This document shows positions 21,683 to 64,000 of a stretch of DNA of 64,000 nucleotides, piece by piece. Position numbers and translations under genes: made by a program. This stretch comes from Fontimonas thermophila (GTDB lineage Bacteria; Pseudomonadota; Gammaproteobacteria; Nevskiales; Nevskiaceae). The stretch spans positions 186,001-250,000 of the forward strand of contig NZ_FOOC01000002.1 in NCBI RefSeq assembly GCF_900113085.1, given 5' to 3'. Numbering within the stretch: the first letter of the stretch is position 1; each line of letters opens with the position of its first letter. Below the pieces are notes generated by a model. The model was not told the origin of the DNA. It searched no databases and saw only the letters and a program-made list of their open reading frames with translations.

Positions 21683-23110
21683 ATGGCCAGAACTGCACGC
21701 AAGATTCCGACTGCCGCTTTTCGCGTCGAACGCGATAGCTTGGGCGAGGTACGGGTGCCGGCTGCGGCATTGTGGGGTGCACAGACGCAACGCGCCGTGG
21801 AGAACTTCCCGGTCTCGGGCCGGCGCATGCCACGCGATTTTTTGCGCGCACTGGGTCTGATCAAGGCCACTGCGGCGGAGGTGAACGCCGCATTGGGTGT
21901 GCTGGATGCGCGCATGGCGCGGGCCATCGCCGCGGCCGCGATGGAAGTTGCCGACGGGATGCACGACGCACAGTTCCCGGTGGATGTCTTCCAGACCGGC
22001 TCGGGGACTTCGAGCAACATGAATGCGAACGAGGTCATCGCCCGGCTCGCCGCGCAGCGTCTGGGTCATCCGGTGCATCCGAACGACCATGTCAACTGCA
22101 GCCAATCGTCGAATGACGTGATCCCGACCGCCATTCACGTGGCCGCGGCCCTGGCGCTGCGGGATGATTTGTTGCCGGCGCTGACGCAGCTCGCAACGGC
22201 GATCGAGCGCAAAGCACGTGCGCTGCGCGGACAGGTCAAGACCGGACGCACGCATCTCATGGATGCGATGCCGCTGCGCTTCGACCAGGAGTTGTCGGGC
22301 TGGGCACAGCAGATCCGCCATGCGCTCGCCCGCATCGAATCCGTGCGCCCGCGTCTGCACGCGCTGGCGCAGGGCGGCACGGCCGTCGGCACGGGAATCA
22401 ATGCCCATCCACGATTCGCACGGCGGTTCGCATCGGCGCTGTCGCGGCGGACACGTTTGCGTCTGCGCCCAGCCGATAACTTTTTCGAGGCCTTGTCGTG
22501 CCAGGACACGGCGGCGGAATTGTCGGGCCAGCTCAAGGTGCTGGCCTGCGCGTTGATGAAGATCGCCAACGATTTGCGCTGGATGAACTCAGGGCCGCTC
22601 GCCGGTCTCGGCGAAATCGAGCTCCCGGCCGTGCAGCCCGGCTCGTCGATCATGCCGGGAAAGGTCAATCCGGTGATCCCCGAGGCCGTCTGCATGGTGG
22701 CCGCCGAGGTGATCGGCAACGATATGACGATTGCGATCGCCGCCCAGTCCGGCAATTTCCAGCTCAACGTCATGCTGCCGCTGATTGCCGACACCCTGCT
22801 GCGCAGTATCCACTTGCTCGCGAATGCCAGCCGTCTGCTCGCCGAGCGCGCGATTGCCGGCTTTGTCGTCCGCCAGGACCGCATCGGTGCGGCGCTGGCG
22901 CGCAATCCGGTGCTGATCACCGCAGCCAACGCGGTGATCGGGTATGAGAAGGGCGCAGCGATCGCCAGGCAGGCGTATCGCGAGGGGCGGCCCGTGCTCG
23001 ATGTCGCCGTGGAACAGACCGACCTGCCGCGCGCGCGCTTGGAAAAGCTGCTCGATCCAGTGCAGTTGACGCAGGGTGGTCTGCCGCAAGCGCCGCGTCG
23101 CCGCCGCTGA
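21683..23110 (+). CDS. fumC: Fumarate hydratase, class II
   Basis: Oxygen-stable, cofactor-free fumarase of the TCA cycle. 475 residues of the aspartase/fumarase superfamily: QTGSGTSSNMNANEV, HPNDHVNCSQSSNDVIPTA, KTGRTHLMDAMP and GSSIMPGKVNPVIPEA. The sequence ends in a basic tail (APRRRR). A second, iron-sulfur fumarase is encoded 1.5 kb downstream, on the far side of an AAA+ gene. Confidence 0.95.
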   Translation: MARTARKIPTAAFRVERDSLGEVRVPAAALWGAQTQRAVENFPVSGRRMPRDFLRALGLIKATAAEVNAALGVLDARMARAIAAAAMEVADGMHDAQFPVDVFQTGSGTSSNMNANEVIARLAAQRLGHPVHPNDHVNCSQSSNDVIPTAIHVAAALALRDDLLPALTQLATAIERKARALRGQVKTGRTHLMDAMPLRFDQELSGWAQQIRHALARIESVRPRLHALAQGGTAVGTGINAHPRFARRFASALSRRTRLRLRPADNFFEALSCQDTAAELSGQLKVLACALMKIANDLRWMNSGPLAGLGEIELPAVQPGSSIMPGKVNPVIPEAVCMVAAEVIGNDMTIAIAAQSGNFQLNVMLPLIADTLLRSIHLLANASRLLAERAIAGFVVRQDRIGAALARNPVLITAANAVIGYEKGAAIARQAYREGRPVLDVAVEQTDLPRARLEKLLDPVQLTQGGLPQAPRRRR

Positions 23111-23198: not shown

Positions 23199-24536
23199 AT
23201 GTTCGATCTAAGCTGGCGCGGCTCACGCCGCCGCACTGTCGAAACCGGGCCGCGCACCACGCCTGCCCCTTTTCTGGCGATCTACGTGCCCGAGGCTTGG
23301 CGGATGGGTGATGCCGGCTTGCAGGACGCGCTGACCCGGCTGCTGCCGGCCGGACGCAGCCATGTCGTTCGCAGTCTGGGTGCATCCGATGGATCTTCGG
23401 TTACTACCGCAGTGGACGCGGAATTCGCATTGAGCCTGTTCGTGGACCCGATGCTGCTCGACCCCCTTGCCCAAGGGGTGCTCGCCGCCCGTGAAGCCGG
23501 TCGCCAGGCGACGTTGATCGTGGCCGTGCAGGGACGACAACTCACCGCGCTCGGGCGCTGGCTCCAGCAGCGCGCCCAGAACGGCCGGCTGGCGGGTCTG
23601 CGCCTGATTCTCGCGCAGAATCCGGAGGATGCGCTGCGGCAGTTGCCCGAGCGTCTGAGTCACGGCGTCGAAGACAATGTCATCCGCATGCCAGTCACCA
23701 CCGAGGTCGAGCGCCCGGTTTACCGCAGTTTTTACGTGTTCAGCCCGGAACTACAGGCCCTGGTCGGGCGCATTCGCGCTTTTGCCAACAATGGCATCAC
23801 CCGCGCTTATCTGCTCGGTGGGCCGGGCAGCGGCAAGACCTCGCTGGCTTACTTCTACTATCAGGTCCGCGGCAAGGGACGTTTCGTCTCGGTGAATCTC
23901 GCGGCTGAGAATACCGGCGATAAAATGGCCGTGAAATCATTGCTGTGCGGACACGTTGCTGGTGCGTTCCCCGGTGCTGGTGCGCGGCTGGGCGCATTCA
24001 CCCATGCGCGTGACGGTGTGTGCTTCCTCGACGAGAGCCACGGTGTCAGCGGCGCGGTTATGGAAGTGCTGATGGAGGCACTCGACAACGGTCAATACCT
24101 GCCGTTCGGCGCCTCGGCCAAGCAACCGCTCGATTGCGCGCTTTTGTTTGCCTCCAACCGCAGCTGGTCCCATCTGCAGGCGTCGGTCAACATCGATGAG
24201 TTCACGCGCCTGGGGGCGGCCGTGCTCGAGGTCCCCGAGCTGCGCAGGCGCGAGGAGGACATGATCGCGGTCATTGCCTCGACCATCGCCCGCCTGGGTG
24301 CCGGATGCACCACCTGGGTACCGCCGGAAGGGCTCGACGAGCCGGCTTGGCGGGTGATTCGCGAATGTCGCTGGCATGGCAATGTGCGCGCCCTGGTCCG
24401 TGTACTGGAGGCAGCCTTCGTCGAGACGGCCGGCCGTGGGGCGACTGCGTTGATTCCGGCCAGTGCGATCGAGACCGGGATCGCGCTCTGGGAGCCGGCC
24501 ACACATCACAGTCACCGGCTCTACGCGGCGGCGTGA
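23199..24536 (+). CDS. Sigma54-activator-like AAA+ ATPase with GAFPGA loop and no HTH
   Basis: A 445-residue protein. Residues 1-190 are an unrecognised alpha/beta domain. From ~185 it is a bacterial-enhancer-binding AAA+ domain: Walker A GGPGSGKT (207-214), L1 loop AGAFPGAGAR (254-263), Walker B VCFLDES (274-280) and WHGNVRALVRVLEAA (from 392), the usual WPGNVREL region. The essential Thr of GAFTGA is Pro here, and the protein ends after the AAA+ domain with no DNA-binding helix-turn-helix. Sigma54 contact is therefore doubtful; ATPase activity is plausible. ATG 23199 has GGAG 6 bases upstream. It lies alone between two fumarase genes. Role unknown. Confidence 0.82.
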   Translation: MFDLSWRGSRRRTVETGPRTTPAPFLAIYVPEAWRMGDAGLQDALTRLLPAGRSHVVRSLGASDGSSVTTAVDAEFALSLFVDPMLLDPLAQGVLAAREAGRQATLIVAVQGRQLTALGRWLQQRAQNGRLAGLRLILAQNPEDALRQLPERLSHGVEDNVIRMPVTTEVERPVYRSFYVFSPELQALVGRIRAFANNGITRAYLLGGPGSGKTSLAYFYYQVRGKGRFVSVNLAAENTGDKMAVKSLLCGHVAGAFPGAGARLGAFTHARDGVCFLDESHGVSGAVMEVLMEALDNGQYLPFGASAKQPLDCALLFASNRSWSHLQASVNIDEFTRLGAAVLEVPELRRREEDMIAVIASTIARLGAGCTTWVPPEGLDEPAWRVIRECRWHGNVRALVRVLEAAFVETAGRGATALIPASAIETGIALWEPATHHSHRLYAAA

Positions 24537-24626
24537 GTTTTACCAGGGCGTCGGGCTAGCAAGCGGACTGCGCCGGCAAAACCGGGTAGCATTCGCGCCC
24601 GGTGAATGCCCCAGCCGTGTGAGCCC

Positions 24627-26159
24627 ATGACCACGATCCGCCAGGACGATTTCATTCAGTCCATCGCCGACGCCTTCCAGTACATCAGCTATTACCACCC
24701 GCTCGATTACATCCGGGCGCTGGGCGAGGCTTATGAGCGCGAGGAAAATCCAGCCGCCAAAGACGCGATCGCGCAAATCCTGACCAATTCGCGCATGAGC
24801 GCGGAAGGACATCGGCCAATCTGCCAGGACACCGGGATCGCCACGGTCTTTCTCAAGATCGGCATGAACGTCCGCTGGGAGGCGACGATGTCGGTCGCCG
24901 ACATGGTCAACGAGGGTGTGCGTCGCGCCTACACCCATCCGGACAATCCGCTGCGTGCCTCGGTGCTGGCCGATCCGGCCGGCAAGCGGATGAACACCAA
25001 AGACAACACGCCCGCAGTGATTCACTACGAGCTCGTTCCCGGTGATCACATCGAGGTGATTTGTGCCGCCAAGGGGGGCGGCTCGGAAGCCAAGGCCAAG
25101 ATGGCGATGCTCAACCCGTCCGACTCGATCGTGGACTGGGTGCTCAAGACCGTGCCGACGATGGGCGCCGGCTGGTGTCCGCCGGGCATTCTCGGCATCG
25201 GCATCGGCGGCACGCCGGAAAAAGCGATGCTGCTCGCCAAGGAGGCGCTGATGGCGCCGGTGGACATCCACGCGCTGAAGGCGCGGGGCCCGCGCAATCG
25301 GGCCGAGGAGCTGCGTCTGGAACTCTACGAGAAAGTCAATCGGCTGGGCATCGGCGCCCAGGGTCTGGGTGGGTTGACGACGGTCGTGGACGTCAAGGTG
25401 CTCGACTATCCGACACACGCTGCGAACCTGCCGGTGGCGATGATCCCCAACTGCGCGGCGACGCGCCATGTGCATTTCGAGCTCGATGGCTCGGGTCCGG
25501 TGGTGTTGCCGACGCCACGCCTCGAAGACTGGCCCAAAGTGACCTGGCAGGCAGACACCAAGGTGGCGACGCGCGTGAATCTGGACTCACTGACCCGTGA
25601 CGAGGTGGCGCGTTGGAAGCCGGGCCAGATCCTCTTACTCAACGGCAAGATGCTGACGGGCCGCGATGCTGCCCACAAGCGCATCCAGGACATGCTGAGC
25701 AGGGGCGAAAAACTGCCGGTGGACTTTCGCAACCGTGTGATCTATTACGTCGGCCCCGTCGATCCGGTGCGCAACGAGGTCGTCGGTCCGGCGGGACCGA
25801 CCACGGCCACGCGCATGGACAAGTTCACCGAAATGATGCTTGCGCAAACCGGCTTGCTCGCCATGGTCGGCAAGGCCGAGCGCGGTCCCGCCGCGATCGA
25901 GGCGATCAAAAAGCACAAAAGCGCCTATCTGATGGCCGTCGGCGGCGCGGCCTATCTCGTGGCCAAGGCGATCAAGGCGGCGAGGGTCGTGGCTTTCGAG
26001 GATCTGGGCATGGAAGCGATCTATGAATTCGAAGTACAGGACATGCCGGTGACCGTTGCGGTCGATGCCCAGGGAACTTCGGTCCATGAAACCGGGCCGA
26101 AACAGTGGCAGGCCAGGATTGCTGGCCGCATCGGCGACATTCCGGTGGCTTTGGCATGA
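24627..26159 (+). CDS. Fumarate hydratase, class I ([4Fe-4S])
   Basis: Iron-sulfur fumarase of 510 residues in the single-chain FumA/FumB arrangement (N-terminal alpha and C-terminal beta regions). Seen are CQDTGIATVFLKIG, ICAAKGGGSEAKAKM, GWCPPGILGIGIGGTPEK, IPNCAATRHVHF, GKMLTGRDAAHKR, VGPAGPTTATRMD and KAERGPAAIEAIKKH. Cys residues in the first and fourth motifs probably ligate the cluster. Oxygen-sensitive, so the pair with fumC may cover different oxygen or iron states. The stop overlaps dsbB (ATGA). Confidence 0.93.
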   Translation: MTTIRQDDFIQSIADAFQYISYYHPLDYIRALGEAYEREENPAAKDAIAQILTNSRMSAEGHRPICQDTGIATVFLKIGMNVRWEATMSVADMVNEGVRRAYTHPDNPLRASVLADPAGKRMNTKDNTPAVIHYELVPGDHIEVICAAKGGGSEAKAKMAMLNPSDSIVDWVLKTVPTMGAGWCPPGILGIGIGGTPEKAMLLAKEALMAPVDIHALKARGPRNRAEELRLELYEKVNRLGIGAQGLGGLTTVVDVKVLDYPTHAANLPVAMIPNCAATRHVHFELDGSGPVVLPTPRLEDWPKVTWQADTKVATRVNLDSLTRDEVARWKPGQILLLNGKMLTGRDAAHKRIQDMLSRGEKLPVDFRNRVIYYVGPVDPVRNEVVGPAGPTTATRMDKFTEMMLAQTGLLAMVGKAERGPAAIEAIKKHKSAYLMAVGGAAYLVAKAIKAARVVAFEDLGMEAIYEFEVQDMPVTVAVDAQGTSVHETGPKQWQARIAGRIGDIPVALA

Positions 26160-32065: not shown

Positions 32066-32141
32066 TGGCGTCCCCACGGGGATTCGAACCCCGGTTACCG
32101 CCGTGAAAGGGCGATGTCCTAGGCCTCTAGACGATGGGGAC
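32066..32141 (-). tRNA. tRNA-Glu (anticodon TTC)
   Basis: The reverse strand reads a complete 76-base cloverleaf beginning GTCCCCATCGTCTAGAGGCC, with the anticodon loop CTTTCAC (anticodon TTC), the T loop GTTCGAATC and an encoded CCA. The acceptor stem GTCCCCA pairs with TGGGGAC. It is downstream of tRNA-Ala on the same strand, probably co-transcribed. Confidence 0.98.
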
Positions 32142-32246
32142 TCGACGGGGATATCCACCCATCAAGCCGCCGAACCGGCGCGGTGGGGACCCTGATCTCT
32201 CCACCCCGGGCGGTTCGTGATGACTTGACGCAACTGCCGAAACGGT

Positions 32247-32322
<76 letters not shown>

Positions 32323-52201: not shown

Positions 52202-53248
52202 ATGGACGTGGATGCCCGCGATGCGCCCGAGCCGATTCTTGGGCAGTCCGACAATTTCCTCGCGGTTCTGGAACGCATCTCGCGGGTTGCGCCGCTGCGC
52301 AAGCCGGTTCTGATCATCGGTGAACGCGGTACGGGAAAAGAGTTGATCGCAGCGCGGCTGCACTACCTGTCCGAGCGCTGGGCGCGGCCGTTCGTGAAAT
52401 TCAACTGTGCGGCGCTCAACGAGGAGCTTCTCGAGTCCGAGCTGTTCGGCCATGTTGCAGGTGCTTACACCGGAGCGGCACGTGCGCGCGTCGGCCGTTT
52501 CGAGCTCGCCCATGGTGGCACTTTGTTCATCGATGAGCTCTCGTCGATGTCCCTGCGCCTGCAGGAAAAGCTGCTACGCGTCGTCGAGTATGGTGAATTC
52601 GAGCGGGTCGGATCGAGCGAGACGATCCGCGTCGATGTGCGTCTGATCGGGGCCGCGAACGTCGATTTACCGGCGCTCGCCCGCGCCGGGCAGTTCCGCG
52701 AGGACTTGCTTGACCGGTTGTCCTTCGACGTAATCACCGTGCCGCCGTTGCGCGAGCGGCGTGAGGACATCCTGCTGCTCGCGCGGAAATTCGCCGAGAC
52801 TATGGCGGCCGAACTCGGTCGTGAGTATTTTGCCGGCTTCTCTCCCGCAGCCGAACGCGCGCTGCTGGAATATCACTGGCCCGGCAATGTGCGCGAGTTG
52901 CGCAACGTCGTCGAGCGCGCGGTGTATCGGCTCGACAACGCCCGGCAAGTCGTCGAGCACATCGAGTTCGATCCGTTTGCCTCGCCGTACCGGCCACGGA
53001 CGCGAGAGAGCCCGCCGCCAGCATCTACTGCCATGACCGCGTCACAGGCATCCACCACGGTGGCCGACGCCGATCCGGCCTTGCCGCTCGACTTCGCGCG
53101 GACGGTTGCCGAATTCGAGATGCGCCTGCTGCGCTGCGCGCTCGCGTCGGCACGCTACAACCAGAAAAAAGCGGCCGAGCTGCTGCGGCTCAGTTATCAC
53201 CAGTTTCGCGGCCAGTTACGCAAGTACAAATTGCACGATGTCTCGTGA
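52202..53248 (+). CDS. pspF: Psp operon transcriptional activator PspF
   Basis: A 348-residue sigma54 activator with no receiver domain, as in PspF. Walker A GERGTGKE is near residue 40 and the sigma54-contacting loop is GAYTGA (the Tyr variant of GAFTGA). Walker B is GGTLFIDEL, YHWPGNVRELRNVVERAV ends the AAA+ domain, and a Fis-type helix-turn-helix (YNQKKAAELLRLSYHQFRGQ) closes the protein. PspA inhibits it until stress. It is divergent from the psp operon it activates and converges on the HAE-1 pump gene. Confidence 0.95.
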   Translation: MDVDARDAPEPILGQSDNFLAVLERISRVAPLRKPVLIIGERGTGKELIAARLHYLSERWARPFVKFNCAALNEELLESELFGHVAGAYTGAARARVGRFELAHGGTLFIDELSSMSLRLQEKLLRVVEYGEFERVGSSETIRVDVRLIGAANVDLPALARAGQFREDLLDRLSFDVITVPPLRERREDILLLARKFAETMAAELGREYFAGFSPAAERALLEYHWPGNVRELRNVVERAVYRLDNARQVVEHIEFDPFASPYRPRTRESPPPASTAMTASQASTTVADADPALPLDFARTVAEFEMRLLRCALASARYNQKKAAELLRLSYHQFRGQLRKYKLHDVS

Positions 53249-56785: not shown

Positions 56786-57940
56786 ATGCAAGTGATCAAT
56801 ACCAATGTGATGTCGCTCAATGCCCAGCGCAATCTGACGACCTCGCAGAGTTCTCTGTCCATTTCGTTGCAACGCCTGTCATCGGGTTTGCGCATCAACA
56901 GCGCCAAGGACGATGCCGCCGGCATGGCGATTTCCGAGCGGTTCACGTCCCAGATCCGCGGACTCAACCAGGCTCAGCGCAATGCCAACGACGGTATTTC
57001 GCTCGCGCAGACCGCTGAAGGCGCCCTCGCCACGGTGACGAGCAATCTGCAGCGCATCCGCGAGCTGGCCGTCCAGTCGTCGAACGCCACCAACACCAAT
57101 ACCGACCGCGCTGCGCTGCAAACCGAAGTCACGCAACTGCTGGCGGAAATCGATCGTGTCGCCAATCAGACCAGCTTCAACGGCGTGAAACTGCTCGACG
57201 GCAGCTTCAGCGGTGCCGTATTCCAGGTCGGCGCCAACGCCGGTGAGACCATCACCGTCTCCTCGATCGTCGATGCCAACACTGCGGCGCTGGGTTCGGT
57301 GACGCAGAACACCTCTGCGGGTCTGTCGGTTTCTGCATCCACCCTGACCGGATACGCGACGGCGATCGCCGCCGGTGGTGTCACCATCAACGGTGTGGAC
57401 ATCGGTGCCATCGGCGCGGCAACGAGTGCTGCCGAACGTGCCGGCCAGCTCGTCAACGCAATCAACGCGGTTTCGCAGCAGTCGGGGGTCGGAGCCTCGT
57501 ACGACGCCGCCACCGGCCAGATCACGCTGACCAGCGCCGTGGCGATCACGATCGGAGGCACGACTGACGACGCCACGATCGCCGGTTATGCCAATGGTTC
57601 CTTCAGTACGCTGACCACGACCACCGGCATCGACACGCTGAGCGTCGCGTCCTATGCGGCCGCCCAGCTCGCGATCCAGTCGGTGGACAGTGCGCTTGCT
57701 ACCGTGAACTCGGCGCGCGCCAGCCTCGGTGCCGTACAGAACCGCTTCGAGTCGGTGGTGGCGAATCTCGCCACGACCTCGGAGAACCTCTCGGCAGCGC
57801 GTTCCCGCATCCAGGATGCCGACTTTGCCGTGGAGACCGCCAATCTGACGCGGGCACAAATCCTGCAACAGGCGGGTACTGCGATGCTGGCCCAGGCCAA
57901 CAGCATGCCGCAGAACGTCCTCAGCCTGCTCCGCGGATGA
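56786..57940 (+). CDS. fliC: Flagellin FliC
   Basis: Filament subunit of 384 residues. [17 protein letters not shown] begins the D0 domain, [20 protein letters not shown] and [20 protein letters not shown] are D1, and a C-terminal [20 protein letters not shown] and NVLSLLRG close it. The central domain (about 180-320) is variable and Ala/Thr/Gly rich, of the shape of a surface-exposed, immunovariable domain. AAGGAGC precedes the ATG, and the sigma28 promoter upstream fits late-class control. A stem-loop lies after the stop. Confidence 0.97.
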
Positions 57941-63433: not shown

Positions 63434-64000
63434 AGCACGGGTACTGGTCATCGATGCCGACGTCGAACGCGCCGAGAGCTTGCGCACGGTTTTGGATTTC
63501 ATCGACCACCGTCCGGTGGTCGTCGAGAGCGTCGCCATGCTCGACCTACACCAGCACAAGCCGCGCGAGTGGGCGGCCGTGACCGTCGGCAAATCGGAAC
63601 CCTCGGCATTGATGCCTTTCATCGACTGGCTGCGGCGCGACCGGCTGCATCCGCCGTTGCTGGTGCTGCAACCGTATTACGAAGCCGTGCTCGAGGTGTC
63701 GGGCCTCGACCGTAGTGCCTGCCTGCAGCTCGATGTTCCCGTCAAGTACGCCCAGCTCTCTGAACTGCTGCGGCGCGCCAGTCTGCTCGGCATGGAAAAG
63801 GCGGCGCAGGCCGTGCGCCTATCGGGACCGACCGGCAACTCGCCGGCGATCCGCCGTGTGCGCCGGATGATCGAGCAGGTTGCAGCCTTCGATACCACCG
63901 TGCTGATCACGGGTGAATCCGGAACCGGCAAAGAAGTCGTTGCGCGCGCCATCCACGAGCGTTCTCCCCGCGCGGGCAAACCTTTCGTCGCCGTCAACTG
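63426..64000 (+). CDS. fleQ: Flagellar master regulator FleQ, N-terminal part
   Basis: Sigma54 activator of early flagellar genes; in Pseudomonas it also binds c-di-GMP. The visible 191 residues have the FleQ-type N-terminal receiver-like domain (VLVIDADVERAESLRTVLDF), which lacks a phosphoacceptor Asp, as known for FleQ. The AAA+ domain follows with Walker A GESGTGKE at residues 163-170 and RPGK-type run SPRAGKPFVAVN. It runs off the window end, so the GAFTGA loop, DNA-binding domain and c-di-GMP contacts are unseen. Confidence 0.95.
   Translation, partial: MNEARVLVIDADVERAESLRTVLDFIDHRPVVVESVAMLDLHQHKPREWAAVTVGKSEPSALMPFIDWLRRDRLHPPLLVLQPYYEAVLEVSGLDRSACLQLDVPVKYAQLSELLRRASLLGMEKAAQAVRLSGPTGNSPAIRRVRRMIEQVAAFDTTVLITGESGTGKEVVARAIHERSPRAGKPFVAVN

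Follow-up and report, generated by a model that had tools for sequence, protein, structure and literature searches.

Gene organisation and domain structure

The window, that is, the whole stretch of 64,000 nucleotides of Fontimonas thermophila DNA that was analysed, contains between two fumarase genes an open reading frame of 445 amino acids, which starts with ATG and has no internal stops (Table 1). Residues 182–332 of its product match the Pfam family Sigma54_activat (PF00158) with an E-value of 1.1e-18 and 67.9 bits (cut-off 20.2), while the match to AAA_lid_14, at 23.3 bits, is below the 27-bit cut-off of that family. By sequence, the closest solved relatives of the 445-residue protein are NtrC1, PspF, ZraR and LuxO. 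An AlphaFold2 model of the whole protein has a mean pLDDT of 83.8, and its AAA+ fold matches the structures of NtrC1, LuxO, FleQ and PspF, with a best Foldseek E-value of 2.5e-14. When the AAA+ part is compared with 5ep1 using VIA-align, a Z-score of 18.6 and an r.m.s.d. of 3.6 are obtained for 197 aligned residues; activators score a Z of around 18. About 30 residues are present beyond the AAA+ lid, which leaves no space for a Fis-type helix-turn-helix (HTH) domain.

Table 1. Location of the gene, its domains and motifs, and the flanking genes (window coordinates).
Feature	Coordinates	Strand	Basis
Fumarase C, flanking, not part of the finding	21683–23110	+	Pfam Lyase_1, FumaraseC_C
Whole gene, sigma54-activator-type AAA+ protein without HTH	23199–24536	+	Open reading frame, Pfam; 46 intact distinct sequences, including its own
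Amino-terminal domain, residues 1–174	23199–23720	+	AlphaFold2 models, fold comparison, residue counts
Walker A GGPGSGKT, residues 207–214	23817–23840	+	Sequence
L1 loop GAFPGA, residues 255–260, Pro258 replacing Thr	23961–23978	+	Sequence, homologue alignment
Walker B VCFLDE, residues 274–279	24018–24035	+	Sequence
Arginine-finger region, residues 328–337	24180–24209	+	Alignment to activators
GNVR sensor II region, residues 394–397	24378–24389	+	Sequence
Carboxy-terminal tail WEPxxHHSHxxY, residues 431–442	24489–24524	+	Homologue residue counts
Class I fumarase, flanking, not part of the finding	24606–26159	+	Pfam Fumerase, Fumerase_C

The gene is separated from the fumarase C gene by 88 bases and from the class I fumarase gene by 69 bases. 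Of 30 loci compared, 12 share this purB-side neighbourhood, L018 and L058 being counted separately although they represent a single place. In the others, the surrounding genes, as named by eye, are dnaJ-like, hemoglobin-like, transaldolase or Tad genes; none of the neighbouring products of 80 or more amino acids is constant across the loci. Because the gene sits elsewhere in these other loci, the fumarases are considered unlinked to it, in agreement with an earlier sequence-only reading of the window, and a role as partner in a fumarase operon was rejected. Also located in the window is a tRNA-Glu and tRNA-Ala pair (32066–32322, reverse strand). Two of the genome's ordinary sigma54-type activators are encoded at 52310–52924 and at 63894–64000, the latter running past the window; it starts with a stretch that, by eye, resembles the amino-terminus of FleQ, and about 7 kb separate it from the flagellin gene near position 56795.

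Conserved motifs and departures from the activator fold

From the 52 genomes of the order in which a match was found, 49 sequences were read (those of G013, G024 and G027 are not among them). Two broken copies (L054 of G074 and L060 of G015) and one that overruns the usual carboxy-terminus near a contig end (L064 of G049) were excluded, leaving 46 intact, distinct homologues. Eleven loci from named genomes encode proteins identical to 11 of these 46 and were counted once. For comparison with activators, 11 family members were aligned with seven RtcR sequences, one further activator found via a weak RtcR-domain match (L129) and seven rows from the same genome, which represent six distinct proteins (L005 and L083 are one gene).

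The ATP site is well conserved. In the Walker A motif, Gly207, Gly208, Gly210, Gly212, Lys213 and Thr214 are present in all 46 homologues and Pro209 in 45, while Asp278 and Glu279 of the Walker B motif and Gly394, Asn395 and Arg397 of the GNVR region are invariant. All three motifs are therefore intact, as had been read from the single sequence. The L1 loop, in contrast, has lost the threonine of the GAFTGA motif throughout the family: residue 258 is proline in 42 homologues, alanine in three, valine in one and threonine in none. The preceding Phe257 is invariant. Just after the loop, one residue is missing in the 11 family members with respect to the compared activators, and the family reads KSLLCGH at the place where these show, for example, ESELFGH or MSALFGH. 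The arginine-finger loop is two residues shorter in the same 11 members. Residues 331 and 337, which we take to be the two arginine fingers of the FREDLxxRL motif, are asparagine and arginine, respectively, in 46 of 46 homologues; the compared activators have arginine at the first position, mostly as FREDL. In a tree with the compared activators, the AAA+ domain of the family forms a separate clade on a long branch.

Where activators continue into the HTH domain, the family has a short tail of sequence WEPxxHHSHxxY, in which Trp431, Glu432 and Pro433 are present in all 46 homologues and His436, His439 and Tyr442 in 45. None of the 46 has space for an HTH domain. The genome's other six activators (E-value of 0.001 or less), on the other hand, combine a GA(F/Y)TGA or GSFTGA loop with an HTH-like, Fis-like end, as judged by eye. 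The architecture can be regarded as beyond chance because it is common to 46 distinct intact homologues. The sequence-only reading had described both the proline in the loop and a chain that stops after the AAA+ domain, and the latter holds for all 46 homologues and the former for 42 of them; homologues with GAFTGA and an HTH domain, which it had named as the sign of a frameshifted or truncated copy, were not found among the 46.

The amino-terminal domain

The first 19 residues are of low confidence in the model and are followed by a receiver-like alpha/beta fold. When modelled alone, the amino-terminal domain has a mean pLDDT of 79.0 and is doubly wound, with an order of strands and helices that fits a five-stranded receiver-like sheet. 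Fold matches are spread over many unrelated alpha/beta folds: the best one, the TIR structure 4c6t (Z 9.5, r.m.s.d. 3.4, 123 aligned residues), is generic, with several GTPases also matching, and the receiver-like domain of CpaE (4dn6; Z 7.4, r.m.s.d. 3.3, 113 aligned residues) is tied with many others. The lists contain many alpha/beta folds, and the absence of a family from them is not informative. From these models the domain is predicted to be of a receiver-like alpha/beta fold.

By sequence, the domain appears to be an orphan. Pfam gives no family for the window member, and over the amino-terminal domains of the 46 members seven families match once each, the best with an E-value of 0.079, none consistently and none a receiver family; two PADLOC families each match one of the 46. 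A profile of the domain found only the window's own genome among 274 of the class, with at most 13 candidates scored per genome. The domain, which the sequence-only reading had not recognised, thus still has no consistent sequence match, but a fold can now be predicted for residues 1–174. A phospho-acceptor aspartate is not conserved: position 83, after the third strand, is Asp in 16 homologues, Glu in 12, Asn in 8, Ala in 6, Ser in 2 and His and Thr in one each. Descent from the receiver-like domain of TadZ was rejected at an hhalign probability of 4.4%, and descent from the CARF domain of RtcR at 0.3%; the RtcR-type CARF domain PF06956 has no match in the 46 members or in the window's genome.

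Distribution of the family

Eleven relatives, 59–75% identical, were found in named genomes, the record titles of which give Sinimarinibacterium, Hydrocarboniphaga, Nevskia, Stagnimonas, Nevskiaceae, Salinisphaerales and, in one case, Rhodospirillales. This last record (L017) and G028, which belongs to the window's taxonomic family, encode identical proteins, so the title is probably wrong. Taken together, the titled relatives presumably belong to the single order that GTDB calls Nevskiales. Outside the window's order the family was not seen, while within it 52 of 85 genomes have a match; in the window's taxonomic family, 45 of 58 genomes have one, of which one is broken. In a sample of the class, for which at most four candidates per genome were scored, a single genome of 369 was positive, the window's own, and the gene is absent from the sample's three further members of the order. 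The weakest full-length member within the order (G074) scores 4.5e-109. Each of the 33 order genomes without the gene has an ordinary activator as its top match, with E-values from 1.6e-14 to 1.0e-23.

A stop and a frame break disrupt the copy in G074, which has neither TadZ nor RcpC; in G015, which has the other broken copy, both are still present. No plasmid match was found at 1e-30, and 66 viral stretches that matched a pattern include no relatives, and spread by mobile elements was therefore rejected. No paper on the family is among the matches listed in open-licence PMC. The family is an order-restricted variant of the activator AAA+ fold. The GAFPGA change by itself is already in print (PMC3162934, PMC4641369).

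Association with the Tad pilus

In four genomes (G001, G002, G058 and G078, from three genera and three families), the gene is located 2.8–10.1 kb from rcpC of a Tad (Flp) pilus locus. Because of this adjacency, the presence and absence of the gene and of Tad components were compared. Of the 85 order genomes, 68 have RcpC and likewise 68 have TadZ, with G007 having TadZ only and G059 RcpC only. TadZ is present in 50 of 52 genomes with the gene and in 18 of 33 without it, and RcpC gives the same four counts (Fisher p = 4.5e-6, a value that leaves out relatedness and is inflated by shared ancestry). These counts include the two broken copies, without which TadZ is present in 49 of 50 positive genomes. 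Within family f6, the gene is present in all four Tad genomes and in two of 13 Tad-less ones (p = 0.006, kinship again ignored); ten of these 13 are 3.3–4.3 Mb in size, so they are not reduced. Flagellin (67 of 85 genomes) and the type VI secretion protein VipA (11 of 85), taken as controls, are unlinked to the gene, with one-sided p-values of 0.39 and 0.31.

The chance of a location within 11 kb of rcpC is, as a rough estimate, 2e-4 for four of 50 genomes, or alternatively 1e-5 for three of about eight distinct gene positions, a number judged from the locus comparison. In the other 46 genomes with gene and Tad, any copy on the same contig as rcpC is more than 11 kb away from it, with adjacency across contig ends possible. 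In a SecY tree of 27 genomes (three of 30, G059, G076 and G078, have a SecY below threshold and are not included), the Tad-less genomes fall by eye into at least five clades, with some weak nodes: G014; G036; G071, G072, G080, G081 and G083; G075, G077 and G079; and G069 and G070 with G073 and G074. The gene is absent from the first four, while in the last G069 and G070 do not have it, G074 has the broken copy and G073 an intact one. The gene is thus mostly missing where Tad has been lost.

Some observations speak against the link. Of the 33 negative genomes, 18 have TadZ; they include every genome of families f4 and f5 (eight) and of genus g8 (three), so the gene is not required for Tad pili as such. 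Furthermore, TadZ and RcpC were not found in G073, which has an intact gene, while Tad is present in G015, where the gene is broken. Among 13 clusters of Tad-locus genes from 20 loci, none is peculiar to positive genomes, several being patchy on both sides. Given these exceptions and the scarcity of adjacency, the protein would be at most an accessory of the Tad system, to which it is probably linked.

An ApaH-like (diadenosine tetraphosphatase) gene, named by eye (L084:1008–1820 and its counterparts), is present in 17 of the 20 Tad loci and often divergent from flp. G037 and G042 each have an extra, diverged Tad-like locus and G029 has an extra RcpC-bearing locus with different neighbours (L085, L087 and L090).

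Possible function

The family has kept the loop phenylalanine and the ATP site but has lost the threonine, one arginine finger and the DNA-binding domain, which makes sigma54 activation unlikely, while a grip on another peptide is possible. The protein is very probably not a sigma54 activator. The evidence favours a putative ATPase acting on a target other than sigma54-RNA polymerase; the sequence-only reading had proposed this without naming a partner, and Tad genes are now linked to it. Our preferred reading, to which we assign a probability of roughly 0.45, is that of an order-specific, activator-derived AAA+ ATPase, most likely not an activator, which has been kept as an accessory of the Tad pilus.

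Direct action on a Tad protein is a tentative extension of this reading. The protein would form a ring like its relatives, in which the phenylalanine of the L1 loop could grip a peptide, while the receiver-like domain and the WEP tail would dock it onto a cytoplasmic Tad component. The likeliest such components are the MinD-like TadZ/CpaE and the hexameric motor TadA/CpaF, which may be loaded, positioned or remodelled in an ATP-dependent cycle. FleN is a MinD-like ATPase, and FleQ-FleN complexes are among the solved structures, according to PDB titles; they would be a precedent for an activator bound by such an ATPase. A hexameric AAA+ protein with a receiver-like domain would also suit a ring of the CpaF/CpaE type: Caulobacter CpaF is described as a hexamer, modelled with six CpaE dimers around it, and the receiver-like domains of the MinD-like CpaE are thought likely to mediate contacts (PMC13170226). 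The complete picture is speculative and rather unlikely: an activator AAA+ ring would have given up its role in transcription entirely and would now remodel the Tad machine, gripping a Tad protein with its loop and docking next to TadZ and TadA with its receiver-like domain.

Alternatively, the protein could be a regulator without DNA contact of its own, which forms mixed rings with an ordinary activator (for example a FleQ-like one), sequesters it or pairs with another regulator, and thereby controls appendage genes including those of Tad. Fold and clade are shared with activators, at least six ordinary activators are available in the same genome as pairing partners, FleQ-FleN complexes have been solved, and altered-loop activators working at sigma70 promoters are reported (PMC10274813, PMC3162934). 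However, a DNA-binding domain is present in none of the 46 homologues, and the long branch of the AAA+ domain fits mixed rings less well than it does a new partner. No strict -24/-12 promoter match is located upstream of flp in 20 Tad-region loci, the lone match lying ahead of a TadE-like gene, at a distance of 270 bases, in G032, which does not have the gene, and a looser pattern has no match in the 600 bases before the window's gene. Flagellin presence, moreover, is untied to the gene. We regard a regulator of this kind as improbable.

The ATPase could also have a role unrelated to Tad, its co-occurrence with Tad being a by-product of ancestry and the joint loss of optional genes. The 18 genomes with TadZ and without the gene, the opposite exceptions G073 and G015 and the lack of a stable gene neighbour agree with this. 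On the other hand, flagellin and type VI secretion are likewise patchy and do not track the gene, ten of the 13 Tad-less f6 genomes are not reduced in size, and adjacency to Tad in three genera is improbable by chance. On this evidence, a role outside Tad is unlikely.

There is little to be said for a working sigma54 activator that tolerates a loop proline and acts from solution, in the way presumed for FlgR and CtcC, which have no DNA-binding domain. The Walker motifs and the loop phenylalanine are intact and activators without an HTH domain are listed in PMC3162934, but a threonine-to-proline change is reported to have inactivated NifA of Bradyrhizobium japonicum (PMC4641369), the first arginine finger is asparagine in 46 of 46 homologues, the L1 loop of the 11 members compared is shorter by a single residue, and alanine or valine in four of 46 shows that proline itself is not strictly kept. 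Such an activator is highly improbable. Truncation or frameshifting of an ordinary activator can be dismissed as the origin of the gene, since the 46 intact, distinct homologues begin and end alike and conserve their tail, a match is present in 45 of the 58 genomes of the taxonomic family, only one of them broken, and the only decayed copies, in G015 and G074, derive from this same family.

If the preferred reading of a Tad accessory is correct, the AAA+ engine of an activator now serves a substrate different from RNA polymerase, and in one order a pilus machine of wide occurrence possesses an ATPase additional to TadA and TadZ. With Tad as a lead, the function can be tested directly. For annotation, it should be kept in mind that Pfam labels such proteins as sigma54 regulators despite the loss of the threonine, an arginine finger and the DNA-binding domain.

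Comparison with known systems

With bEBPs such as NtrC1, LuxO, PspF and FleQ, the family shares the AAA+ domain with its L1 loop, Walker A and B motifs and GNVR region. It differs in having its own amino-terminal domain and tail, and in the features by which bEBPs are recognised: the fourth position of the GAFTGA motif is neither threonine nor serine, only the second of the two arginine fingers is kept, and the WEP tail takes the place of the carboxy-terminal HTH, which is usual although not universal in bEBPs. In PspF, the ring is described as taking in the amino-terminal peptide of sigma54, with the L1 phenylalanine touching leucines of this peptide and arginine residues near the loop touching DNA (PMC9770992).

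Among curated families, RtcR is the best match of the AAA+ part, but with 97.1 bits against an NCBIfam cut-off of 650; the PADLOC family RtcR_PspF2 gives 105 bits. The stretch preceding the AAA+ domain is of similar length in RtcR and other CARF-AAA-HTH regulators. Unlike the family, the seven RtcR sequences that were read keep the loop threonine and, going by the PADLOC family name, would also have an HTH domain. Assignment to a defence system was rejected, the only support being three RtcR-type matches, all via the AAA+ part.

TadZ/CpaE, which co-occurs with the gene, has a receiver-like amino-terminal domain beside an ATPase, the arrangement predicted for the family. Its ATPase, however, is of the MinD type and that of the family AAA+, and the amino-terminal domains show no relation by profile.

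FlgR, CtcC and FleT resemble the family in combining an AAA+ domain with the absence of an HTH domain, and are counted as functional sigma54 activators in PMC3162934. Loss or alteration of the sigma54-contact motif, in turn, is shared with the loop-defective activators, among which are Caulobacter and Rhodobacter NtrC, VpsR, TyrR and DVU2960. NtrC and TyrR are described as acting on sigma70-type promoters, and VpsR as judged not sigma54-dependent or sigma70-acting. DVU2960 of Desulfovibrio vulgaris has the identical GAFPGA sequence and is given as of unclear function (PMC4641369), and proline seemed to be a favoured substitute for threonine among about 110 deviant activators (PMC3162934). In contrast to these loop-defective activators, the family as a whole is without a DNA-binding domain, and what is new here is that its gene tracks the Tad pilus, with adjacency to the Tad locus in four genomes.
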